Shown here piece after piece: positions 17,739-32,011 of a stretch of 64,000 nt of DNA. The notes under the pieces are model-generated. The model had not been told where the DNA came from. It saw only the letters and a program-made list of their open reading frames with translations, and searched no databases. A program made the translations under genes and the position numbers. The DNA lies in contig NZ_SOZH01000005.1 of assembly GCF_004519295.1 (NCBI RefSeq), positions 62,001-126,000 of the forward strand. The letters run 5' to 3'. This DNA comes from Cellulosimicrobium funkei. Lineage in GTDB: Bacteria; Actinomycetota; Actinomycetes; Actinomycetales; Cellulomonadaceae. Position 1 is the stretch's first letter, and each line of letters starts with the position of its first letter.

Positions 17739-18716
17739 ATGACGACGACGCAGCCCCCGCGCTCCCCCGACGCCCCGGCGCCGGGGCGTGCCCGGCGGCG
17801 CCGACGCCCCCTGCGCACCGCGGTCACCCTCGTCACGGTGGCCGCGGTGGGCGTCGGCGCGGTCGTGGTCGCGCTCAACCGGCTCGACGACGCGACACCC
17901 GTCGCGGAGCGCTGCGCCGCGACCGCCGACGGCCGCACGTGGTACCTCTCCGTGACGCAGGCGGACAACGCGGCTCTCATCAGCGGGGCTGCCGTGCGGC
18001 GTGGGCTGCCCGCCCGCGCCGCGACCATCGGGCTCGCGACCGCGCTGCAGGAGTCGCGGCTCGTCAACATCGACTACGGCGACCGCGACTCCGTCGGTCT
18101 GTTCCAGCAGCGCCCCTCGCAGGGGTGGGGAACCGTCGCGGAGATCATGGACCCCGTCTACTCGACCAACACGTTCTACGACGTGCTCGAGACGGTCGAG
18201 GGCTACGAGGGCATGGAGGTCACCGTCGCCGCGCAGACCGTCCAGCGGTCCGCGTTCCCCGACGCGTACGCGCAGCACGAGCCCCGCTCGCGCGCGTGGG
18301 CGTCCGCGCTGACCGGCTGGTCGCCCGCGTCGCTCACGTGCGACCTCGCGGCGGTCCCGGCGGAGGAGGTCCCGGCCGACGGCGACCCCGCCGAGCCGTT
18401 CCGGGAGCGCGCCGCGCGCGACCTCGGCGACGCCGTCCGCGTCGCGCCGTCGGACGGCGGGGACGGGGGCTTGGCCGTGGTCGACGCGTCCGCGCTCCCC
18501 GGCGCCGCGGAGGACGGCGGCGTCGAGCGGTCGGCATGGGCCGTCGCCCAGTGGGCCGTCGCGACGGCGGACGCCACGAACGTCGTCGCCGTCGAGGTCG
18601 GCGACCGCCGCTGGTCGCGCGACGGCTCGACGTGGACGACCCTCGACCCGGCCGACCTCGCGCCGCTCGAGCCGGGCACCCTGCGCGTCCACGTCGCTGT
18701 CCCCGACGCGTCCTGA
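17739..18716 (+). CDS. Membrane-anchored protein with lysozyme-like/lytic transglycosylase-like domain
   Basis: 325 residues: a basic N-terminus, one membrane helix (about 27-46), then an external domain. Residues 98-131 (LATALQESRLVNIDYGDRDS then VGLFQQRPSQGWG) resemble the catalytic Glu and the E-S and G-L-F-Q motifs of SLT-type lysozyme folds; Glu105 would be the acid. The tail from about 200 on is acidic and of unknown fold. Some actinobacterial relatives are mislabelled heavy-metal transporters. Its place 31 bases after dapD suits a peptidoglycan role, but activity is unproven. Confidence 0.65.
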   Translation: MTTTQPPRSPDAPAPGRARRRRRPLRTAVTLVTVAAVGVGAVVVALNRLDDATPVAERCAATADGRTWYLSVTQADNAALISGAAVRRGLPARAATIGLATALQESRLVNIDYGDRDSVGLFQQRPSQGWGTVAEIMDPVYSTNTFYDVLETVEGYEGMEVTVAAQTVQRSAFPDAYAQHEPRSRAWASALTGWSPASLTCDLAAVPAEEVPADGDPAEPFRERAARDLGDAVRVAPSDGGDGGLAVVDASALPGAAEDGGVERSAWAVAQWAVATADATNVVAVEVGDRRWSRDGSTWTTLDPADLAPLEPGTLRVHVAVPDAS

Positions 18717-18767
18717 CCGACCGTCGTCGGTCCCGACGCCGGGTCGCCGACGGGGCCGACGACGAAC

Positions 18768-18801
18768 GCCGCGCCGCTCACCGGGAGGTGAGGGGCGCGG
18801 C
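18768..18801. terminator. Bidirectional terminator between the lysozyme-like gene and gltA
   Basis: A 15-bp inverted repeat with one mismatch (18768-18782 with 18787-18801) and a 4-base loop, between convergent genes. No T tract. Confidence 0.7.
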
Positions 18802-18818
18802 GTCCGGAGGAGGGATCG

Positions 18819-20117
<1,299 letters not shown>

Positions 20118-20159
20118 GGTTCCCTTCCTGCTGCTGCTCGCGCCGTTGCCGCGCGGTCG

Positions 20160-20165
20160 ACCGTA
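20160..20165 (-). promoter_or_regulatory. Putative gltA -10 element
   Basis: TACGGT on the minus strand, 43 bases before the gltA ATG, with a weak -35 (TGGTCA) 18 bases further up. Predicted start near 20153. Confidence 0.45.
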
Positions 20166-20221
20166 CCCCGCCTCACCCGCACGTGACCAATCAGGAACCG
20201 TCACGAGAACACCACACCCGC

Positions 20222-20237
20222 TGTGATCCAGGTCACG
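20222..20237. promoter_or_regulatory. CRP/GlxR-like operator upstream of gltA
   Basis: TGTGATCCAGGTCACG contains the palindromic core GTGA-N6-TCAC characteristic of CRP-family (GlxR/Crp) sites. Its centre is about 76 bases before the predicted gltA start, a position suited to activation. It overlaps the last codons of dapC (stop at 20235-20233). Confidence 0.6.
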
Positions 20238-21375
20238 CCAGCGGGAGGCCTCCGGAGAGTCGAGCCGCGGCCTCGTGGACCCGCTCGTCGGTCGCGGTGA
20301 GGGCGACGCGCACGTGCCCCGTGCCCTCCGTCCCGTAGAACGCCCCGGGCCCGACGAGGATGCCCCGGTCCGCGAGGGCGGAGACCGTCAGCCAGCAGTC
20401 GCCGGCCGCCTCGTCGGCGGGCCGCGTCCACAGGTAGAGGCCCGCCTCGGAGTGGTCGATCACGAGGCCCGCGCCCGTGAGGGCGTCGACGAGCACCTCG
20501 CGGCGGCGCGCGTAGACGTCGCGCTGCGCGGCGACGTGCGCGTCGTCGGACAGGGCCGCGACCATCGCGGCCTGGACCGGCGCGGGGACGATCATGCCGA
20601 GGTGCTTGCGCGTCGCGAGCAGGTCCGCGACGAGCGCCGCGTCCCCGGCGACGAACGCCGCGCGGTAGCCCGCCATGCTCGACTGCTTGGAGAGCGAGTA
20701 GGTGACGAGCAGGCCGTCGTGCGACCCGCCGCACACCGCCGGGTCGAGCAGGCTCGGGACACCGGTCGTCGTGAAGGGCTCGGTCCACGCGAGCTCCGCG
20801 TAGCACTCGTCGCTCGCGACGACCGCGCCGATCTCGCGGGCCGCGGCGACGACGCGCGCGAGGTGCGCGGCATCGAGCACCCGGCCCGTCGGGTTGCTCG
20901 GCGAGTTGACCCAGACCAGGCGCACGTCGTCGCGCCCGGCCCACGTGTCCACGTCGTCCGTGGCGAGGGGCGTCGCGCCCGCCAGGCGCGCGCCGACGTC
21001 GTAGGTGGGGTACGCCGTCCGCGGGTGCACGACGACGTCGCCCGGCCCGAGCCGCAGGAGCGAGGGCAGCAGCCCCACGAGCTCCTTGCTCCCGACGGTG
21101 GGGAGCACGGCGTCGGGGTCGAGCCCGGGGACGCCGCGACGGCGGGCGAACCACGCGGAGACCGCCTCGCGCAGGGCGGGCGTCCCGTGCGTCGTCGGGT
21201 AGCCGTGCGCGTCGGACGCGGCGGCGAGCGCGTCGCGCACCACGGCGGGGGTCGGGTCCACCGGCGTGCCGATGGAGAGGTCGACCACGCCGCGGGGGTG
21301 CGCTCGCGCGCGCTCCGCGTACGGGGTCAGCGTGTCCCAGGGATAGGCGAGACCGGAGAGGTCGGCGAGTCCCAC
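20233..21375 (-). CDS. dapC: Succinyldiaminopimelate transaminase
   Basis: 380 residues, a fold-type I PLP aminotransferase. It forms N-succinyl-LL-diaminopimelate between the DapD and DapE steps. Visible features: NSPSNPTGRVLD, DECYAELAW and the PLP lysine in SLSKQSSMAGYR. The GTG start lies 19 bases after the fdxA stop. The fdxA-dapC pairing is standard in Actinobacteria (Rv1177-Rv1178), which separates this gene from other class I aminotransferases. Its stop codon lies in the CRP-like site of gltA. Confidence 0.93.
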   Translation of the reverse strand: MGLADLSGLAYPWDTLTPYAERARAHPRGVVDLSIGTPVDPTPAVVRDALAAASDAHGYPTTHGTPALREAVSAWFARRRGVPGLDPDAVLPTVGSKELVGLLPSLLRLGPGDVVVHPRTAYPTYDVGARLAGATPLATDDVDTWAGRDDVRLVWVNSPSNPTGRVLDAAHLARVVAAAREIGAVVASDECYAELAWTEPFTTTGVPSLLDPAVCGGSHDGLLVTYSLSKQSSMAGYRAAFVAGDAALVADLLATRKHLGMIVPAPVQAAMVAALSDDAHVAAQRDVYARRREVLVDALTGAGLVIDHSEAGLYLWTRPADEAAGDCWLTVSALADRGILVGPGAFYGTEGTGHVRVALTATDERVHEAAARLSGGLPLA

Positions 21376-21394
21376 GAGCGCCGGCGCCGGAGGC

Positions 21395-21712
21395 TCAGGC
21401 CTGCGGCGGCAGGGCGGCGATCATCGGGTCGTCCTTCTCGATGAGACCCATCTTCGCGGCACCGCCGGGCGAGCCGAGGTCGTCGAAGAACTCGACGTTG
21501 GCGCGGTAGTAGTCGCTCCACTCCGTCGGCACGTCGTCCTCGTAGTAGATCGCCTCGACGGGGCAGACCGGCTCGCACGCGCCGCAGTCGACGCACTCGT
21601 CCGGGTGGATGTAGAGCGACCGCTTGCCCTCGTAGATGCAGTCGACAGGACATTCCTCGATGCACGCCTTGTCCTTGACGTCCACGCACGGCTGGGCGAT
21701 CACGTAAGTCAC
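21395..21712 (-). CDS. fdxA: Seven-iron ferredoxin
   Basis: 105 residues with eight cysteines: Cys9, 17, 21 and 25 in the N-terminal CIEECPVDC region and Cys40, 43, 46 and 50 in [12 protein letters not shown]. The spacing matches FdxA-type ferredoxins with one [3Fe-4S] and one [4Fe-4S] cluster, small electron carriers for cytoplasmic redox enzymes. The C-terminal region [19 protein letters not shown] is typical of the actinobacterial family. GTG start with AGAAAGG upstream. Confidence 0.95.
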
Positions 21713-21785
21713 GACCGAGTACCTTTCTGGGTTCGTCCGGACCCGGCCCGGCGAGGGGCGAGGTCATGACAGGGGCATGCACGAC

Positions 21786-21791
21786 TAGTAT
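21786..21791 (+). promoter_or_regulatory. Possible -10 element in the fdxA/SH3-gene divergent gap
   Basis: TAGTAT, one of the few AT-rich hexamers in the 154-base gap. The overlapping minus-strand reading (GATACTAGT) could serve fdxA, so the two promoters may overlap. The -35 boxes are weak. Confidence 0.3.
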
Positions 21792-21866
21792 CGCTCAGGT
21801 CGGGCGGTGCCCGACCCTCCCTGACCAGCCCGTGGACGAACGTCACACGACCCGAGGAGCCGCCCC

Positions 21867-22169
21867 GTGCCCGACTCGCCCTGGACGACGTGGGCGCCGG
21901 GGACGCGGGTCGTCGTCCGCCGCAGGCTCTCGCCCGACGACGCCGCCGCTGCGGGCAAGCCCCTCACCGACGTGATCGGGGTGGTCGTGGAGACCACCGC
22001 GACCACGCTCGTGCTGCGCGAGGACGCGGGCGGCAGCGCCCCGCCGCACCGCGGCCACGGCCCGCGCGACGACGCCCCTCCCCTGGTCTCCGTGCCGCTC
22101 GACGCGATCGTGGCCGGCAAGCCCGTCCCGCCGCGGCCCCCGCGACGGCCCGCGTCGCGCCCGGACTGA
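21867..22169 (+). CDS. Stand-alone SH3-like domain protein (Rv0428c N-terminal type)
   Basis: 100 residues from a GTG preceded by GAGGAG. The sequence WAPGTRVVVRRRL, LTDVIGVVVETTATTLVLRE and VSVPLDAIVAGKPVPPRPP matches, from memory of the family, the small beta-barrel domain found at the N-terminus of Rv0428c-type acetyltransferases in Actinobacteria. Here no acetyltransferase domain follows. The C-terminus is basic and Pro-rich. Function unknown; it could be a partner or a remnant of a split gene. It is convergent with tyrA. Confidence 0.7.
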   Translation: MPDSPWTTWAPGTRVVVRRRLSPDDAAAAGKPLTDVIGVVVETTATTLVLREDAGGSAPPHRGHGPRDDAPPLVSVPLDAIVAGKPVPPRPPRRPASRPD

Positions 22170-22266
22170 CGACCGGGCCCGACGGACGACCGGTCGACGG
22201 GGCCCGGGGACGGGGCCCGGCGACGACGTGACCCGCGGGCGACGCCCAGACCCGGCGGGCGGCCGC

Positions 22267-23268
22267 TCAGGCGACGACGACCGCCCGGTCCTCGACGTCC
22301 ACGACGACGGCGCCGCGGGCCCCCGCGGCGGTGAGCGTCTCGCGCCAGGTGCCCGCGTCGTCGAGGTCGACGCGCACGGGCTCGCCGGTGCCGCCCGTCG
22401 CGGCGCGCACCGGGTCGGGCCTGTCGAAGAACTCCCCCACGGGCGCGTTGGTCTCCAGCGCGCGCACGAGCTGCTCGAGGTCGCGCACGACGACGCGCAG
22501 CGCGGACGCCACCCACGCGGCGTTGTCCGTGACCATGGCCTCGGTCCGGCGCGGGTCGGTGCGCCCCACGCGCGTCGCGTCGCGGAAGCTGCCCGCGGCG
22601 AGGCCCAGCGCGACGTCGCGCACGGGCGCGTCGGCGACGACGCCCAGGAGCTCGGTGGCCAGGACGTGCGGGACGTGGCTGACCAGCGCGGTGGACTCGT
22701 CGTGGACGTCGTCGGTGAGCACGTGCACCGTGCCGCCGAGCGGGCCCGTGACGAGCCGCAGCACGCTCGTGAACGCGTCCGGTCGCGTGGTCGCGTCCAC
22801 CGTCACGGCCCAGCGCGCGCCCGCGAGCATCGCGGGGTCCGACGCCTCGAAGCCCGAGTGCTCCGTCCCGGCCATGGGGTGCGCCCCGACGTACCGGGCG
22901 TCGAGCCCGGCGGACCGGACGGCGTCGCGCACCGCGCCCTTGACGCTCCCGACGTCCGTCACGACCGTCGCGCCCCGCACGTGCCGGGCGACGTCGGCCG
23001 CCACCGCCCGCATGGCGCGCAGCGGCACGGCGAGCACGAGGACGTCCGGCTCGTCGGCGCAGACCTCCGCGACGTCGCCGACCACACGCAGACCGGCAGC
23101 CCGCGCCGCCGCGCGCGTGGTCGCCGTGGCGTCGTAGCCGGTCACCTCGACCCCGCGGTCGTGCAGGATCCGGGCGACCGAGCCGCCGACGAGACCGAGG
23201 CCGACGACGCCGACCCGGACCGCCGAGCGGGACGTTCCAGGCTCCGGCGGGGCACCCGCGGCGCTCAC
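22267..23268 (-). CDS. tyrA: Prephenate dehydrogenase
   Basis: 333 residues. It oxidatively decarboxylates prephenate to 4-hydroxyphenylpyruvate for tyrosine synthesis. The N-terminal NAD-binding motif is VGVVGLGLVGGSVARIL, followed by TDVGSVKG and the prephenate-binding HPMAGTEHSGFEAS. The C-terminal 45 residues do not form an obvious full ACT domain. The GTG at 23268 overlaps the pheA stop (GTGA), so tyrA is the last gene of a coupled three-gene set with pheA and a PheA-like gene. Confidence 0.93.
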   Translation of the reverse strand: MSAAGAPPEPGTSRSAVRVGVVGLGLVGGSVARILHDRGVEVTGYDATATTRAAARAAGLRVVGDVAEVCADEPDVLVLAVPLRAMRAVAADVARHVRGATVVTDVGSVKGAVRDAVRSAGLDARYVGAHPMAGTEHSGFEASDPAMLAGARWAVTVDATTRPDAFTSVLRLVTGPLGGTVHVLTDDVHDESTALVSHVPHVLATELLGVVADAPVRDVALGLAAGSFRDATRVGRTDPRRTEAMVTDNAAWVASALRVVVRDLEQLVRALETNAPVGEFFDRPDPVRAATGGTGEPVRVDLDDAGTWRETLTAAGARGAVVVDVEDRAVVVA

Positions 23269-24212
23269 CACAGGAGCCCCGTCGCGAGGCCCGCCGCGCC
23301 GGTCGACGCGTCGACGCTCCCGACCGGGACGTGGGCGGCGTCGACGTCGGCGCGCACCGACCCGTCGAGCTCGCCGCGCGCCGGGACGACCCCGAGCGTC
23401 TTGAGCGCGTCCCCGGCCCCGACGAGGTCTTCCAGGACCGCGCGCACCGGCGCGTCCCAGGGCGCGCCGTCGACCACGAGGACGAACGCGTAGGTGCCCG
23501 CGACCGCCTTGAGCGGGCGGGTGATGAGGCTCGAGAGGTTGACGCGCCGCGCGCCGAAGGACTGGGTGATGCGCGCGAGCACCCCCGGTCCCGTGACGAC
23601 GGGCGTCACCGCGAGCATCGTGCGCCACGCCGTCTCGCCGCCGCTGCGCGCCCGGCCGAGCGCCGCGGCGGCCTCCGCGCGCGGCGCCAGCACGAGGAAC
23701 CGGGTGCGCGCGCCCGCGAAGTCCTCGACCGCGCGCTCGACCGTCTCCAGGCCGTAGAGCTCACCGCAGATCGTCGGGCCGAGGGCGACCTGGTGCGGGC
23801 CGGCGTCGCGGCACGCCGCGGCGTTCGACGACGCCGCGACCGGGGCGAGGCCCGTCCGGCGCACGAAGCCCTGGCACTGCGCGAGCCCGTGCGGGTGCGC
23901 CGTCACCTCGGTGAGGTCGCCGTGGCCCGGTCGCGCGAACGCGTCGAACGAGATGTCGAGCACGACCTCGTCGACCGCGACGACGCTCGCGCTCCCGACG
24001 ATCGCGTCGAGCGAAGGCACGACGTACCCCTCGACCGTGTTCTCGATCGCGACGACGCCCCGCTCGTGCACGCCCGCGGCCACGCCCGCGAACACGTCTG
24101 CGACGGTCTCGCGGGCCGCGAGCCCGGCATCCACCGGGCCGTGCTCGGCCGACCACGCGGCCGCCGCCTGGTGGGTGAACGACCCCTCGGGGCCGAGGTA
24201 CCCGACGCTCAC
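23265..24212 (-). CDS. pheA: Prephenate dehydratase with ACT domain
   Basis: 315 residues. It converts prephenate to phenylpyruvate. The catalytic domain starts VGYLGPEGSFTHQAA and contains VVAIENTVEG, SSNAAA and the essential Thr-Arg-Phe at 170-172. The regulatory ACT domain spans about 200-275; the usual ESRP phenylalanine motif reads ITRP here, so feedback binding may be altered. It overlaps the upstream PheA-like gene and the downstream tyrA by 4 bases each. Confidence 0.94.
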   Translation of the reverse strand: MSVGYLGPEGSFTHQAAAAWSAEHGPVDAGLAARETVADVFAGVAAGVHERGVVAIENTVEGYVVPSLDAIVGSASVVAVDEVVLDISFDAFARPGHGDLTEVTAHPHGLAQCQGFVRRTGLAPVAASSNAAACRDAGPHQVALGPTICGELYGLETVERAVEDFAGARTRFLVLAPRAEAAAALGRARSGGETAWRTMLAVTPVVTGPGVLARITQSFGARRVNLSSLITRPLKAVAGTYAFVLVVDGAPWDAPVRAVLEDLVGAGDALKTLGVVPARGELDGSVRADVDAAHVPVGSVDASTGAAGLATGLLW

Positions 24213-25108
24213 GCGTGGACGGGGTCGGGGGCGGTCGCCCAGCGCGGCTCGAGCGCGTCCGGGCCGGGCACGAACTCCTGCCCGGGCAGGACCGCGAGCA
24301 CCCGGTGCGCGACGCCCCGCTCCCCGAACCCCGCGACGAGCGCGTCGAGCGTCGTCGCGTCAGGGCACGAGAACGCGCAGAAGAAGATGTGCGGCCCCGC
24401 CTGCGAGCGGTGGCTGCGCAGGTGCTGGAGGTCGATCCCGGCGGCTGCGACGAGCGCGAGCGTCTCCTGGAGCGAGCCGCGGTGGTCGTCCCGGGGCCCG
24501 AACGCGAGCCACACCTGGGCGACGCCCTCCGCCCGAGGCGCCGCGTCGCGGCTCTCCAGCAGCCCGTACCAGACGGGCGCGCCCTCGCCGAGGAGCTCGC
24601 TCCCCGGGAGCTCGGCGTAGCCGAGCGCAGCGAGCGGCCCGCGGGCCACCGAGCGCTCCACGACGAGGCTGCCGTCGGCGCCGGCGAGCGCGACCCGCTC
24701 CTCCAGCGTGGTGCGGGTCGGGACGAGCGACGGGCTGACGCCCATCGTGCGCAGCACGTGGCGCCGGTCGCGCATGCCCGCCTCGTCGACCACCACGTGC
24801 CCCGTCAGGTCGCGGGCCGCCGTCGACCGGCCGACCCAGACCCACTGCGACGGCACCGCCGACGCGCCGGTCAGCACGAGCGACGGCGGCGCCGCGAGCA
24901 GCGCGCGCTCGAGCTCGTGCGACGGCTGCGCCGGGTGGCCCAGGTGCACGACGGCGGCCAGCGCGTCGATGCTCGCGACGGTCGACAGCGTCGCCGTCGT
25001 CGACCCGAGGTCGAGCAGCGCCTCCGTCGGGTCGCCGTCGACCCATCCCGCCGCCGTGGCCGCGAGCAGCGCCTGCGCTCCCGACTCCCGTTCGCTGCGT
25101 CCGAGCAT
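24209..25108 (-). CDS. Degenerate prephenate dehydratase paralogue with ACT-like domain (probable pseudoenzyme)
   Basis: 299 residues. The C-terminal part (about 198-275) reads like the PheA ACT domain: a strand, RGSLQETLALVAAAGIDLQH, GPHIFFCAFS and GVAHRVLAVLP. Just before it, the segment at 148-184 aligns with the end of the PheA catalytic domain, but the place of the Thr-Arg-Phe motif is Val-Trp-Tyr (179-181). The N-terminal YLGPEGTF-type and IENT-type motifs are also missing. I infer a full-length but catalytically dead PheA relative, possibly an aromatic amino-acid sensor or a partner of PheA. GGAGG precedes the ATG, and its stop overlaps pheA (ATGA). Confidence 0.7.
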   Translation of the reverse strand: MLGRSERESGAQALLAATAAGWVDGDPTEALLDLGSTTATLSTVASIDALAAVVHLGHPAQPSHELERALLAAPPSLVLTGASAVPSQWVWVGRSTAARDLTGHVVVDEAGMRDRRHVLRTMGVSPSLVPTRTTLEERVALAGADGSLVVERSVARGPLAALGYAELPGSELLGEGAPVWYGLLESRDAAPRAEGVAQVWLAFGPRDDHRGSLQETLALVAAAGIDLQHLRSHRSQAGPHIFFCAFSCPDATTLDALVAGFGERGVAHRVLAVLPGQEFVPGPDALEPRWATAPDPVHA

Positions 25109-25139
25109 GGGACCTCCGTGGTTCGTGGGTGGACCGGGT

Positions 25140-28100
25140 CTACTCGCAGACGACCGCGTTGTCCGGCTTGTAGGTCCACCGGTAGGACTCGTCCTTGACG
25201 AGCTCGCCCTCGCGGTAGACCTTGCGGTAGTTCGTGATGGAGAAGCCCGGGCTGCCCGCGGGCGTCGGGGCGCAGTCGGCGCCCGAGTGCGTGACCGTCG
25301 TCGGCTGGACCACGTTCGACTTGCCGCTCGACGACGTCTCGACGTCGTAGTACTTGGTGCTCCAGACCGCGACGTGCAGCTGGCCGCCGCCGACCCAGGA
25401 CTGCATGAGGACGCCGTACGGGGTGTCGTTCTTGAACTTCATGTCGATCGAGCCCACGAAGATCGTCGCCTCGCGGCCCGCGGGGTAGCGCTCGAACCAG
25501 TAGCTGTGCGGGCGGTGCTCGACGTCCTCGAGCCCCGCGAAGAACCCCGCGTTGTACGTGGTGGTGGCCATCTGCGACAGGCCGCCGCCGACGCCCTCGG
25601 TGTGCCGCCCGCTCTCGACGATGCCGGCCGCGTAGTAGCCGCCCTCGAGCGTGATGGGCGAGAGCGTGTCGACGAGCGAGAAGGTCTCCCCCGGCTTGAC
25701 GAGCGTCCCGTTCACCTTCTCCGCCCCGCGCTGCAGGTTCGCGGTGCGGACGGGGACGTTGGGGACGGGCGTCGAGAACTCCGACACCTTCTCCTTGATC
25801 CCCAGCGCCTCGAGCGCCGCGACCGACTGCTCCGGGTCCGACTCGACGAGCTCGACCGTCGCCGTGCGCTCGTCGCCCGAGGCGGCCGTCGTGACGGCCG
25901 TCGCGATGGCCGCCGGGTCGATCGTCGTGCCGGGCTGGCCGCCCTCGATCACCGGCACTCCGTCCCGGAAGACGAAGTGCGCGTCGTCGGCCGCGGTGAG
26001 CAGGTCGTTCGTCCGGTCGACCACGGACTGCACGAGCGCCGGGCCGTCGAAGGTCAGGGTGAGGACGCCGTCCGTCGCCGCGAAGGAGGCGGCCGCGGCG
26101 AGCGCCTCGGGGGGCAGCTCCGGCGACTGGCCGCCGACGGAGACGACGACGGGCGCGGACACGACCTTCTCCGCCAGGGCGAGCGCGGCGTCCGTCTCGT
26201 CCTGCGTGATCGTGGGCTCGACGGGCTCGGTGGGCAGCTCGACCGGCCCGTCGGTGACGAGCCAGCTCTCCGTGATGGTCGCGGGCACCTCGTCCGTGAC
26301 GAGCGCCGAGCCGTCCGCGGCAGGCGTGCTCGTGGGCGCGCCGTCGACGAACTGCACGGCCCCGTCCACGGGCTCGATCTCCAGGCTGCCGCGCAGCGCC
26401 TCGACCTGGGCGTCGAGGGCCGCGTCGTCGACCGTGACCAGCGGCTCCGCGTTCTTGCCGCCGAACAGGTGCTGCCACAGGCGCGCCGGGTTCATCGAGA
26501 ACGACGTGAGCTCCTCGGCCGTGCCCGCGGCGTCGAAGGTCAGGCCCGCCGTCGCCGGGTCGAGCGTCGTGCTCGCCTCGCCCGCGGCGAGCGTGATCGG
26601 CTCGGCCGCGCGCGGCCCGAGCTCCGACTCGAGCCGGTCCTCGGCCGCCGTCCGGGACAGGCCACCGACGTCGACGCCGGCGACGCTCGTCCCGCTCGGG
26701 ACCTTGTCGGAGTAGAACCACTGGGCGCCGGTGTACAGGCCGCCCAGGACCAGGACGGCGATCCCCGTCCACAGCAGCCCGCGGGCCCAGCCGCGCCGCG
26801 GCCCGTCCTCGTCGAAGCCCTCGAAGGGCGAGGCCTCGCGCGAGTCGTCGGGCGGGACCGGCGTGAACGCGCTCGGTGCGGCGGTCCCCGCGGCGACCGC
26901 CTGCGCCGTCGCGCCGAAGCCCTCGGCCGGGGCCTCCGCCGGAGCGGTCGCGCCGGCGGCGACCGGCGCCGGGCTCGCCGACTCGTCGGGGGACGCGGGA
27001 GACAGGATCGACGTGCGCACGACGGGCGCGGGCCGCGACCACGGGTCGACGGGCGGGATCACCCGCGTCGCGTCGGGCGCGGCGTCGCTCCCCTCGTCCG
27101 CGGGTCGGCCCTGGTCGCCCGCCGGCGCGGAGCTCACGGGCACGACGGTGGTCCGCTCGGCCGTGCTCTCGTCGGCCGGGCCTCCCCCGGTCGCGTCGGC
27201 CGACCGGTCGGCCGACGTCGGGTCGTCAGCTGTCGCGCTGCTCGCGGCCGTCGCGTCCGCGGCCGTGTCGTCCGAGGTCGTGGAGTCCGGGGGGACCGAG
27301 GTGTGGGCGACGGGCGCCGGGGCCTCCCGGTCGGCGGTGCCCGTGGCCTGGGCGGCCGGGGCGTCGGCCTGGGCACCCGGTGCGGGGACGAGCACCGCCG
27401 GGACGTCCGGGTCGAACGCGAACACGCGCGGGACGTACGGCTCCTCGTCGGCCTCGTCCGCGTCGCTGCCGCCCGGAGCGCCGACCGTCCGCGGGCTGCT
27501 CTCGGCCGTGGGGCCGCCGTCCGGGGTGCCGACGAGGGCCGGGCTCCCGGCAGCGCCGGCGACCGGCGCGTCGGGGGTGGTCGACGTCGGCGCGCCGCTC
27601 GCCTCGGTCGGGTCGGCCGTCGACCCGCCCAGCGCGGACGCACCCGCGACGGGCGACTCCGCGACGGACGCGTCCGGACCGCTCTCGACCGGGGTGTCCT
27701 GGGCGTCGGGCTCGAGGGCGGCGCTCGCCGAAGCACCGGCGTCCGCGTCCGTCACGGTCGTCGCGCGGGTCTCGGCGGGTGCCTCGTCCGCCGGAGCTGC
27801 GGGCGTGGCGTGGGTGGCCGGGCTCGCGTCCACGGCGTCCGACGACGAGGCGGGTGCCGGGCTCGCGGCGTCCGGCACCGCGGAGCCCTGCTCCGAGGCG
27901 GCGGTGGGCTGCGCGGCCGTCCGCTCGGGGGTCTCGGCCGTCTGCTCGGGGAGCGCGGCCGTCCGCTCGGGGGTCGCGGCCGTCTGCTCGGGGACCGCGA
28001 CAGACTCCGAGGTGACGAGCGGCTCCGAGGAGGCGACCTCCGGGCGGCTCCCCGCCGCGGGAGAGCCGGCCTCGGACGCGTCGGCGGTGGCTGCACCGGT

Positions 28101-28421
28101 GGCCGGCGCGTCGCCCGCCGGGGTCGCGCCGGGTACGGGGCCGGGCTCGGCCGCGCCGGCACCCTCAGGACCGTGGTCCGCAGGCGCGGGGCCGTCCGGG
28201 GCGGTGTCCGTCGGCGCGCCCGTCGGTTCGTCCGTCGACGCGCTCGTGGACTCGTCCGTCGGCGTGGGAGCGACCGGGGCGACGTCGCCGGACGCGTCGG
28301 CACGCTGCGCGTCGGGGCCGGACGCCGTCTCGGGAGCCGCGGGCTCGACCGTCTCGGCGGGCTCCGGCACGGCGTCCTGAGGGGAGTCGAGATCGGCGTC
28401 TCGGTCGGTCGGCTGACCCAT
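25140..28421 (-). CDS. Very large VanW-family protein with disordered cytoplasmic N-terminus
   Basis: 1093 residues. Residues 1 to about 540 are Ala/Pro/Thr/Ser/Glu/Asp-rich and predicted disordered, including four 7-residue repeats near 141-169. One membrane helix follows (about 545-565). The external half carries peptidoglycan-binding-4-type repeats (about 580-860) and a VanW domain (about 880-985, with KPGETFSLVDTL and the GGGLSQMATTTYNAGF core). VanW proteins occur in vancomycin-resistance loci and widely in actinobacteria; their exact activity is unknown, though cell-wall action is likely. The ATG at 28421 is the first reasonable start. It ends 31 bases before the PheA-like gene, so it may share its transcript. 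Confidence 0.85.
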   Translation of the reverse strand: MGQPTDRDADLDSPQDAVPEPAETVEPAAPETASGPDAQRADASGDVAPVAPTPTDESTSASTDEPTGAPTDTAPDGPAPADHGPEGAGAAEPGPVPGATPAGDAPATGAATADASEAGSPAAGSRPEVASSEPLVTSESVAVPEQTAATPERTAALPEQTAETPERTAAQPTAASEQGSAVPDAASPAPASSSDAVDASPATHATPAAPADEAPAETRATTVTDADAGASASAALEPDAQDTPVESGPDASVAESPVAGASALGGSTADPTEASGAPTSTTPDAPVAGAAGSPALVGTPDGGPTAESSPRTVGAPGGSDADEADEEPYVPRVFAFDPDVPAVLVPAPGAQADAPAAQATGTADREAPAPVAHTSVPPDSTTSDDTAADATAASSATADDPTSADRSADATGGGPADESTAERTTVVPVSSAPAGDQGRPADEGSDAAPDATRVIPPVDPWSRPAPVVRTSILSPASPDESASPAPVAAGATAPAEAPAEGFGATAQAVAAGTAAPSAFTPVPPDDSREASPFEGFDEDGPRRGWARGLLWTGIAVLVLGGLYTGAQWFYSDKVPSGTSVAGVDVGGLSRTAAEDRLESELGPRAAEPITLAAGEASTTLDPATAGLTFDAAGTAEELTSFSMNPARLWQHLFGGKNAEPLVTVDDAALDAQVEALRGSLEIEPVDGAVQFVDGAPTSTPAADGSALVTDEVPATITESWLVTDGPVELPTEPVEPTITQDETDAALALAEKVVSAPVVVSVGGQSPELPPEALAAAASFAATDGVLTLTFDGPALVQSVVDRTNDLLTAADDAHFVFRDGVPVIEGGQPGTTIDPAAIATAVTTAASGDERTATVELVESDPEQSVAALEALGIKEKVSEFSTPVPNVPVRTANLQRGAEKVNGTLVKPGETFSLVDTLSPITLEGGYYAAGIVESGRHTEGVGGGLSQMATTTYNAGFFAGLEDVEHRPHSYWFERYPAGREATIFVGSIDMKFKNDTPYGVLMQSWVGGGQLHVAVWSTKYYDVETSSSGKSNVVQPTTVTHSGADCAPTPAGSPGFSITNYRKVYREGELVKDESYRWTYKPDNAVVCE
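27915..27998. repeat. Four 21-bp tandem repeats inside the VanW gene
   Basis: Units at 27915, 27936, 27957 and 27978, each starting GGCCGTCYGCTCGGGG. They encode a heptapeptide with Pro, Glu, Thr and Ala in the disordered region, so copy number can change without breaking the frame. Confidence 0.85.
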
Positions 28422-28494
28422 CCACTGTCTCCGTGACGAAAGGCGCGCGGCGGTCCGCGCGACGACGAGGGGTGTGCGGGGATCCGCACGGCGA

Positions 28495-28500
28495 ATACTA
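28495..28500 (-). promoter_or_regulatory. Possible -10 element for the VanW gene
   Basis: TAGTAT on the minus strand, sharing its TAG with the stop codon of the upstream small membrane protein gene, 74 bases before the VanW ATG. No convincing -35. Confidence 0.35.
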
Positions 28501-28947
28501 GCGGGACGCGAGGGGGTTCTCGGGTCCGTCGTGCCTGGTGGGACGCCCGTGCTGGGCCGTGCGGACCGGGCGGTCGCTGAACCACGACCGGGGCAGGAAG
28601 GCCGCCGCGGCGACCACGAGCATGCCCCCGTAGATCCAGACGTACCCCACGGGCTCGGCCGGCACGAGCACGTCGCCACCCGGACCCTGCAGCGAGAGGA
28701 GCTGCACGACGACGACCCACCCGATGCCGAAGCCCAGGAGACCCGCCATCCCGCCCCAGGCGCGGGCCAGGGTGGCCGCCGCGAGGACGGTGAGCAGGGC
28801 GAGCACGATGCCGAGCCCGGCCCCGTCCGGGAGGTCGACGCCCAGGAGGTGCGCCCGGTGCGCGACCGTGCCGACGAGCCCGACGAGCGCGCCCACGAGC
28901 GCGCACGCCACCCCGCGGCCCACGAGCCGCCCCATACCGGTCTCCAC
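28498..28947 (-). CDS. Small four-helix membrane protein (DUF6113-like)
   Basis: 149 residues with four hydrophobic segments (about 10-30, 44-62, 66-86 and 100-117) and a hydrophilic C-terminus. No catalytic motif is seen. The start is GTG at 28947, 10 bases past the mshB stop; an ATG at 28935 is the alternative. A small membrane gene directly after mshB is common in this group of actinobacteria, but its function is unknown. The family name is from memory and tentative. Confidence 0.7.
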   Translation of the reverse strand: METGMGRLVGRGVACALVGALVGLVGTVAHRAHLLGVDLPDGAGLGIVLALLTVLAAATLARAWGGMAGLLGFGIGWVVVVQLLSLQGPGGDVLVPAEPVGYVWIYGGMLVVAAAAFLPRSWFSDRPVRTAQHGRPTRHDGPENPLASR

Positions 28948-28957
28948 GGGCCCCAGG

Positions 28958-29968
28958 CTAACGCGTCGGTCCGGGCGGGACCTGGTCGCTCGGGAGAGCA
29001 GGGCCGGAGGGAGCGTAGAACTCGTGTGAAGGGACGGGCGCCAGCACGTCGTTGCTCAGGGCGTACCACCCGAGCAGCACCGGCTCGCCCCCCGCGGCGG
29101 CCGTCACGTGCTGGACCTGCGTCGCGTGCGCGCGCATCGCGCCGAGCACGTCGTCGAGCACGGGACCTACCGGCACGCTGACGAGCGCGGGCAGCGACGC
29201 GTCGGGACGCGCGAGCGGGGGCAGCGCCTCGTCCGGGTCCGGGAGCGTGAGCCGCGCGTCGGCCGCGAGCAGCTCGCGCGCGCCGGGGTGCTCGGCGAGC
29301 GCGCGCCGCGCCGCGCGCACCGTGGTCTCGGGGGCGACGACCTGCCACAGCGCGGGCAGCGGCTCGCCGTCCGCGGCGAGGAGCTCGAGCGCGCGGACCG
29401 TGACGTCGTGCGCCCGGACGTGGTCGGGGTGGCCGTAGCCGCCGCCCGCCTCGTACGTCGCCACGACGGCGGGACGGCGCTCCCGGACCACCGCCGCCAG
29501 GTGGGCGGCGGCCTCGTCGAGCGGGACGCCGACGAACGCGCGCGGCGGGAGCTGCTCGGTCGCGACCCCGCCGGCCACGCCCGGCGCGACCCAGGCCATG
29601 CCCGAGTCCTCGAACCGCACGGTCGCGCCGCCGTCGGACGGCTCGACCGGGCTCGTGACGGTGTCGAGGAAGACGTGGTCCCGCACGCCCAGCGCGGCGA
29701 GCGCGCGGGCGAGCTCGGTCTCGCGGAACGCCGCGAGCGCGGGCCCGTCGCCCTCGAGGTGCCCGACGCCCGTCGGGTGCGCGGGGGTGTCGATCACCTC
29801 GCCCCGCTCGCCCCGCGTGCAGGTCACGACGGTGACCGGCTCCCCCGCGCGGGCCCAGGTCGCGAGCAGCGCGCCCGTCGCCAGGGTCTCGTCGTCGGGG
29901 TGGGCGTGGACGGCCAGCAGGCCGCCGTCGGGCACGACGGCGGCCTGCTGGCTCTGCGGGACGGTCAC
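28958..29968 (-). CDS. mshB: N-acetyl-1-D-myo-inositol-2-amino-2-deoxy-alpha-D-glucopyranoside deacetylase
   Basis: 336 residues of the LmbE/PIG-L zinc hydrolase fold, with the metal-binding HAHPDDE at 21-27 and GYGHPDHVRAH further on. MshB deacetylates GlcNAc-inositol in mycothiol synthesis, the main low-molecular-weight thiol of actinobacteria. The mycothiol conjugate amidase Mca is a close relative, but the length, the sequence TCTRGERGEV and the position near typA fit MshB. GTG start, 14 bases before the typA stop side. Confidence 0.85.
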   Translation of the reverse strand: MTVPQSQQAAVVPDGGLLAVHAHPDDETLATGALLATWARAGEPVTVVTCTRGERGEVIDTPAHPTGVGHLEGDGPALAAFRETELARALAALGVRDHVFLDTVTSPVEPSDGGATVRFEDSGMAWVAPGVAGGVATEQLPPRAFVGVPLDEAAAHLAAVVRERRPAVVATYEAGGGYGHPDHVRAHDVTVRALELLAADGEPLPALWQVVAPETTVRAARRALAEHPGARELLAADARLTLPDPDEALPPLARPDASLPALVSVPVGPVLDDVLGAMRAHATQVQHVTAAAGGEPVLLGWYALSNDVLAPVPSHEFYAPSGPALPSDQVPPGPTR

Positions 29969-29981
29969 CCCGTGGGTGGCG

Positions 29982-31892
<1,911 letters not shown>

Positions 31893-32011
31893 CTACGGTT
31901 CTCATTTCGTGGGGTACGAGGGGCGACGACGGCCGGCCACCTCAGCGCGCACGACGGCGGGCTCGGCCCGCCGCAGCATCACGGAGCACGGGCCGTCACC
32001 CGGGCCCGGCT

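Follow-up and report, generated by a model that had tools for sequence, protein, structure and literature searches.

A putative PheA-derived pseudoenzyme encoded beside pheA2 and tyrA in Cellulosimicrobium funkei and related Actinomycetota

Introduction

Why would a bacterium encode, directly beside its genes for prephenate dehydratase and prephenate dehydrogenase, a relative of the dehydratase that lacks the catalytic motifs? The question is raised by a stretch of 64,000 nucleotides from Cellulosimicrobium funkei (contig NZ_SOZH01000005.1, positions 62,001 to 126,000; hereafter, the window), in which a gene that we refer to as the paralogue is followed by pheA2, the gene for a divergent prephenate dehydratase, and by tyrA (Table 1). 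An initial annotation of the locus proposed that the paralogue is a dead copy of PheA that serves as an allosteric subunit or aromatic sensor. Our comparison of the encoded proteins across genomes points to a PheA-derived pseudoenzyme that may act as a sensory subunit of PheA2.

Results

The paralogue is predicted to retain the fold of PheA

As judged from its AlphaFold model and from fold matches in the PDB, the paralogue is a PheA-derived protein in which a prephenate dehydratase (PDT) fold is followed by a C-terminal ACT domain. The two domains are collinear with those of PheA and account for the model. The N-terminal region, for which an unrelated fold had been considered, was predicted to adopt the PDT fold; on the same model and fold matches, we rejected the alternative that the paralogue merely joins an ACT domain to an N-terminal region of other origin. 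In profile comparisons by hhalign, the paralogue matched conventional PheA with a probability of 93% over columns 37–243 (86% with a larger set), compared with 13%, 48%, and 57% for sets of PheA2. The ACT half matched PheA2 (90%) better than conventional PheA (70%). The N-terminal half gave a weak match (probability 12%, score 26.8) that was reached by 0 of 60 column shuffles and by 2 of 400 in a larger run; seven unrelated families scored at most 17.7 against this half. The branch of the paralogue in the PheA tree is very long, and either conventional PheA or PheA2 may have been its source.

A single-sequence search of the PDB with the paralogue returned no matches to PheA, and a profile search returned only weak matches to PheA in the ACT part (best E 0.0017). 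Weak matches in genomes fell within PheA genes at 6 of 7 loci at the order level and at 8 of 9 loci at the class level, the latter mostly in the ACT part. The Pfam PDT family (PF00800) was absent from all 52 paralogue members up to E 1. The Pfam ACT family (PF01842) was reported up to E 1 for 37 of the 52, with a best value of 1.1e-4; the paralogue of the window scored 14.8 bits (E 0.025), which lies below the curated cut-off of 27 bits. Pfam detected no DNA-binding domain in the paralogue, and neither Pfam nor NCBIfam names it.

A new conserved signature replaces the catalytic motifs

GPxGTFT, IEN, and HPHxxxQC contribute motif residues of prephenate dehydratase and were conserved in 42 conventional PheA proteins. 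The role of the TRF triad in the catalytic domain of the enzyme is stated in one study (PMC10845154). By hhalign, V179-W180-Y181 of the paralogue align to T-R-F of conventional PheA, as the initial annotation had read them. The equivalent site was [VILQ]-W-[YF] in 86 of 86 orthologue rows (85 by pattern and L061 by eye; some genomes are represented twice). Column counts over 52 aligned rows revealed W180 in all 52, Y181 in 51, and V, L, or I at position 179 in 51, with no TRF triad. The replacements extend to the other motifs: GPxGTFT has become GRSERES, IEN has become LGH, HPHxxxQC has become DEAGxRDC, and TRF has become [VLI]WY, and the SSxxA motif of PheA is also replaced. Remnants are visible as G3 (52/52) and S9 at the site of the last Thr of GPxGTFT (51/52), the register of this first loop being set by eye from secondary structure with hhalign beginning at column 37, and as C115 (40/52), the Cys after Gln in HPHxxxQC. 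In the ACT domain, the effector-site motifs GALV and ESRP were not found; GSL stands for GALV, LRS[HQ] occupies the ESRP site, and the glutamate of ESRP corresponds to an arginine that is invariant in the 52 rows.

Conservation at the motif-equivalent positions exceeded that in the remainder of the domain (0.83 vs 0.69; p 0.009 by permutation of blocks that were hand-chosen from the alignment); the equivalent positions in PheA2 scored 0.94. Seven of nine polar residues of the remade cleft (D108, E109, R113, D114, R138, E151, and W180) were invariant in the 52 rows, and H55 and H58 were found in 49 and 50 of them, respectively. With this higher conservation and with new residues at the sites of the former active centre, the cleft looks repurposed. 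The model, the fold matches, and the column counts together support the view that the gene encodes a PheA paralogue without catalytic motifs. To call it dead is correct as regards those motifs, but may be too simple for a cleft conserved in this manner.

The paralogue and PheA2 are under similar constraint

After length limits had been applied, a 97% filter kept 53 of 114 paralogue open reading frames and 61 of 115 PheA2 open reading frames; 52 and 51 of these rows, respectively, were aligned, and one paralogue row, L058, which was read past a stop, was left out of later sets. Over 51 distinct loci (51 of 112 complete pairs), mean pairwise identity was 0.621 among paralogue sequences and 0.634 among those of PheA2, with a correlation of 0.90. 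The median ratio of nonsynonymous to synonymous substitution rates (dN/dS) was 0.19 for the paralogue and 0.21 for PheA2, calculated from non-independent pairs (98 and 82) with identity >78% and dS <2. Thirty-six columns were invariant across the 52 paralogue rows. Purifying selection on the paralogue is as strong as that on PheA2.

PheA2 is a motif-complete putative dehydratase with an altered ESRP site

By sequence and fold, PheA2 has the domain, motifs, and fold of a prephenate dehydratase. The protein of the window matches Pfam PDT at 2e-36, and reads GPEGSFT, IEN, SSNAA, and TRF at the motif sites. At E 1e-5, its genome (4.38 Mb) contains no other PheA match; its best score against the NCBIfam prephenate dehydratase (177 bits) lies below the cut-off of 219. 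TRF is retained in 83 of 85 PheA2 rows from genomes that carry the paralogue (hereafter, carriers) and is replaced by TQF in the other two.

The altered ESRP motif that had been noted in the active PheA was confirmed: PheA2 of the window reads LITRP at the IESRP site of conventional PheA. Among carrier PheA2 from 44 named contigs, the site reads LITRP in 33, LVTRP in 7, LITRS in 1, and LMARP in 1, and was unread in 2. By pattern, ESRP was found in 39 of the 42 conventional PheA proteins of the order, including 16 of 16 from non-carriers of the family, and TRF was found in all 42. The change had been taken as a sign that feedback sensing moved to the partner. In that form, the suggestion is not supported, since the glutamate is also missing from PheA2 of another family, f4, for which searches revealed no partner. 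The f4 motif reads NMTSF[IM]SRP in 12 of 12 distinct rows, which indicates that loss of the glutamate does not need a partner. ITRP was rejected as a mark of the partner for the E-to-I step; the S-to-T step (xTRP), unlike the loss of E, was confined to genomes with the paralogue.

The paralogue occurs together with its type of PheA

A single-sequence search located the paralogue in 103 of 221 genomes of the family, representing 18 of 25 genus codes, an occurrence far beyond chance. Two kinds of PheA are found in the 221 genomes: the PheA2 type in carriers and a distant type in non-carriers (best E 6.5e-27; 114 of 118 were matched and 4 were not). In 102 of the 103 carriers, PheA2 is the same-strand neighbour of the paralogue, the exception being genome G467, and the predicted co-occurrence of the paralogue with its type of PheA is borne out. 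PheA2 is cut or in pieces in some carriers (G430, G453, G486, and G489), and the paralogue is in two pieces in G411, G440, G482, G485, and G489, which may reflect assembly errors or real breaks. Named carriers include Cellulosimicrobium, Oerskovia, Sanguibacter, Promicromonospora, Isoptericola, Luteimicrobium, Rarobacter, Jonesia, Flavimobilis, and one record labelled Cellulomonas (L049); the nearest named relatives of the window are Cellulosimicrobium records. PheA2 sequence lies just downstream of the paralogue in 44 of 44 named contigs, three of which are imperfect: L043 ends inside PheA2, L045 contains only broken PheA2 pieces, and the paralogue of L063 is in pieces. Searches beyond the family, covering 297 genomes of the order and, with a profile, 394 genomes of the class, yielded no full-length relative; in both, only the best first-look candidates per genome were scored.

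One contig labelled Sphaerisporangium cinnabarinum (L024; QAPD01000048.1) encodes a protein 99% identical to that of the window; it looks like Cellulosimicrobium, and the label seems wrong. A second PheA was seen in two carriers, G467 and G471 (L135 and L136), with TQF and VARP in L135.

Organization of the locus

Within the window, the paralogue overlaps pheA2 by exactly 4 bases and pheA2 overlaps tyrA by exactly 4 bases, as first described. With start codons chosen by script, the paralogue and pheA2 overlap by exactly 4 bases in 36 of 43 genomes and in 34 of the 44 named contigs; these counts and the adjacency across carriers support the tight coupling proposed for the three genes. Given the overlap, the paralogue and PheA2 may be produced at equal rates, as the initial annotation supposed. 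Rfam revealed no RNA match in 18000–32000 of the window, and promoter and terminator scans of 21700–25700 found nothing, a result of little weight in such GC-rich DNA.

Of 14 genomes tested, 13 encode a separate CM_2 chorismate mutase, that of the window among them. On this ground, the notion that the paralogue is a chorismate mutase in disguise was rejected as the default. The fourteenth genome, carrier G242 (genus code g11), has no CM_2 match despite the presence of pheA2, tyrA, and the paralogue.

Table 1. Features of the paralogue locus, in coordinates of the window.
Feature	Position	Strand	Description and basis
PheA paralogue without catalytic motifs	24209-25108	minus	ATG open reading frame, 299 amino acids, no internal stop; predicted PDT-like two-lobe domain (~residues 1-190) and ACT domain (~195-280); AlphaFold model, PDB fold matches, orthologues
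Former catalytic (PDT-like) domain of paralogue, residues 1-190	24539-25108	minus	New conserved signature GRSERES, HLGHPxQP, DEAGxRDC, R138, E151, WYG at motif-equivalent positions; alignment, column counts, block permutation, order of strands and helices
ACT domain of paralogue, residues 195-280	24269-24526	minus	GSL for GALV, LRS for ESR(P); hhalign, weak profile matches to PheA ACT in PDB, column counts
pheA2, divergent prephenate dehydratase gene	23265-24212	minus	GTG start, 315 amino acids; motif-complete (TRF present), ITRP for ESRP
tyrA, prephenate dehydrogenase gene	22267-23268	minus	GTG start, 333 amino acids; Pfam PDH_N and PDH_C
typA	29982-31892	minus	
PIG-L gene	28958-29968	minus	
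Small protein gene	28498-28947	minus	No Pfam match; by eye, probably membrane
VanW-domain gene	end at 25140	minus	Between small protein gene and paralogue
Ferredoxin and aminotransferase genes		minus	Beyond tyrA in minus-strand order

Discussion

The best reading of these findings, in which we place about half of our confidence, is that the paralogue is a pseudoenzyme that descends from a PheA and serves PheA2 as a sensory subunit. Subunits of PheA pair with each other through the dimer faces of their ACT domains, PDT domains, or both. The paralogue may pair with PheA2 through the same faces, as a subunit that senses but does not catalyse. The ligand, either an aromatic end product or an intermediate of the pathway, would bind to the ACT domain and probably also to the remade cleft. 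The ligand-bound paralogue would then set the activity of PheA2 and perhaps that of TyrA encoded just downstream, in a manner akin to the action of HisZ on short HisG or to that of a prozyme. It is tempting to speculate further that the locus specifies a two-subunit prephenate dehydratase, in which the active site of an ancient PheA copy was turned into a second ligand pocket. Pocket and ACT domain together would allow two signals, such as an end product and an intermediate of the pathway, to be integrated in the gating of PheA2, and perhaps of TyrA, where phenylalanine and tyrosine synthesis branch. We consider this extension possible but tentative.

Several observations weigh against a role of the paralogue as a subunit of PheA2. 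The strongest single fact is provided by G467, in which the paralogue is followed by tyrA within 70 bases and pheA2 is absent (L137; G467:C1:2612000-2620000). A distant PheA (35% identity, with TQF and VARP) is encoded elsewhere in this genome, beside a second, divergent tyrA. The paralogue of G467 is intact and shows no sign of relaxed selection, with a dN/dS to four relatives of 0.10–0.19 compared with 0.13–0.21 for other pairs. Its persistence under constraint in the absence of pheA2 implies either that the loss was recent or that the paralogue has another partner or role. Second, the type of TyrA changes together with that of PheA in the 23 genomes tested for it, such that co-occurrence fits either PheA2 or TyrA as the partner. 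Third, a pure scaffold would not appear to need the old active-site positions as its more conserved ones. Since a passive scaffold is not expected to conserve the cleft in this manner, we infer that it either continues to bind a ligand of some kind or carries out a new reaction.

A fourth observation comes from f4, where PheA2 is found in 19 of 23 genomes (E 1e-56 to 1e-80) and no partner was found; the other four genomes yielded no PheA match. At the 14 f4 loci that were read, typA lies upstream and tyrA downstream with no paralogue between them, and a profile search of the 23 genomes for the paralogue returned no full-length match and one short match at E 0.05. Since, among solved proteins, 3luy of Bifidobacterium adolescentis comes closest, the family is probably Bifidobacteriaceae. 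A quick tree placed f4 PheA2 inside the carrier clade; a more careful tree left its placement undecided and did not reject a tree that holds carriers together (p-AU, from the approximately unbiased test, 0.40). For this reason, we make no case for loss of the paralogue in f4. The TRF site of f4 PheA2 reads TDF in 7 and TEF in 5 of 12 distinct rows. In the genomes of f4 loci L158–L171, the sole PheA match has T[DE]F at the site of the catalytic TRF, just as the solved 3luy reads TDF.

The main rival holds that the paralogue is a neofunctionalised enzyme whose rebuilt prephenate cleft supports a different reaction, within aromatic metabolism or close to it, its coupling to pheA2 and tyrA reflecting membership in a pathway and no complex. 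The conservation and invariant polar residues of the cleft would suit such an enzyme, as would the survival of the paralogue without pheA2 in G467 and the existence of GqqA, a PDT-fold protein that by its title has another activity. However, no pathway step is obviously missing, given that PheA and TyrA are present and CM_2 is separately encoded in all but one of the genomes tested, and we judge a new enzyme rather unlikely. Less probable still is a stand-alone aromatic sensor or partner of TyrA, in which an ACT protein that binds phenylalanine or tyrosine would act mainly on TyrA or on gene expression and the linkage to PheA2 would be secondary. Pfam detects no ACT domain in TyrA of the window, and it is beside tyrA that the paralogue has stayed in G467 after the loss of pheA2. 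On the other hand, Pfam detects no DNA-binding domain, PDT and ACT domains account for the model, and presence of the paralogue tracks PheA2 in all carriers except G467, though the covariation of TyrA deprives this of power to separate the two. A decaying duplicate retained by position only is hardly credible despite the lost motifs and the five genomes in which the gene is in two pieces, because the selection data (the low dN/dS, a rate equal to that of PheA2, and the invariant columns) show constraint and the gene is present in 18 genus codes.

If the paralogue is a subunit of PheA2, control of the phenylalanine and tyrosine branches in many genera of Actinomycetota would rest on a protein unnamed in Pfam and NCBIfam. 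The PheA2 of f4, for which no partner was found, and G467, which has the partner without PheA2, constitute natural test cases, and the conserved, rebuilt cleft offers a concrete handle on the reuse of a dead active site.

Conventional PheA consists of PDT and ACT domains, as in the solved structures 3mwb (Arthrobacter aurescens), 2qmx, 2qmw, 6vh5, and 4lub; the paralogue differs in its replaced PDT motifs, in the invariant arginine at the glutamate of ESRP, and in the lack of a Pfam PDT match among its 52 members. The structure 3luy is of the PheA2 type and not of the paralogue type, with TDF for TRF and ISRP for ESRP; it was deposited as a putative chorismate mutase and is, by sequence and fold, a prephenate dehydratase-type protein. 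GqqA (7am0 and 7alz), which occupies rows 6 and 8 of the PDB fold matches of the paralogue, has the PDT fold and is, by title, a novel type of quorum quenching acylase.

Pseudoenzyme partners are known for several enzymes. Prozymes, such as the S-adenosylmethionine decarboxylase (AdoMetDC) prozyme of trypanosomes, are inactive paralogues that partner active enzymes. The paralogue resembles them as an inactive paralogue of an active enzyme; it is bacterial, is encoded beside its twin, and carries an ACT domain, and its activation of PheA2 is putative. HisZ derives from the aminoacyl-tRNA synthetase fold. One report describes HisZ as a regulator of short HisG, which enhances the catalytic protein and through which feedback inhibition is exerted (PMC9734150). 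It is not derived from its own partner, whereas the paralogue is a relative of the adjoining enzyme, for which regulation is only proposed. Other pathways thus already furnish examples of an enzyme accompanied by a relative that is inactive or regulatory; for prephenate dehydratase, we found no description of such a partner in the open-licence PMC literature, among the matches listed. Within aromatic metabolism, another study describes a TyrA of Nostoc and Anabaena whose AroQ extension is degraded and has no catalytic activity (PMC1173090). As described there, this protein shares with the paralogue an inactive aromatic-pathway domain beside a pathway enzyme, and differs in being a chorismate mutase relic fused to TyrA, as opposed to a separate, putatively PheA-derived protein.
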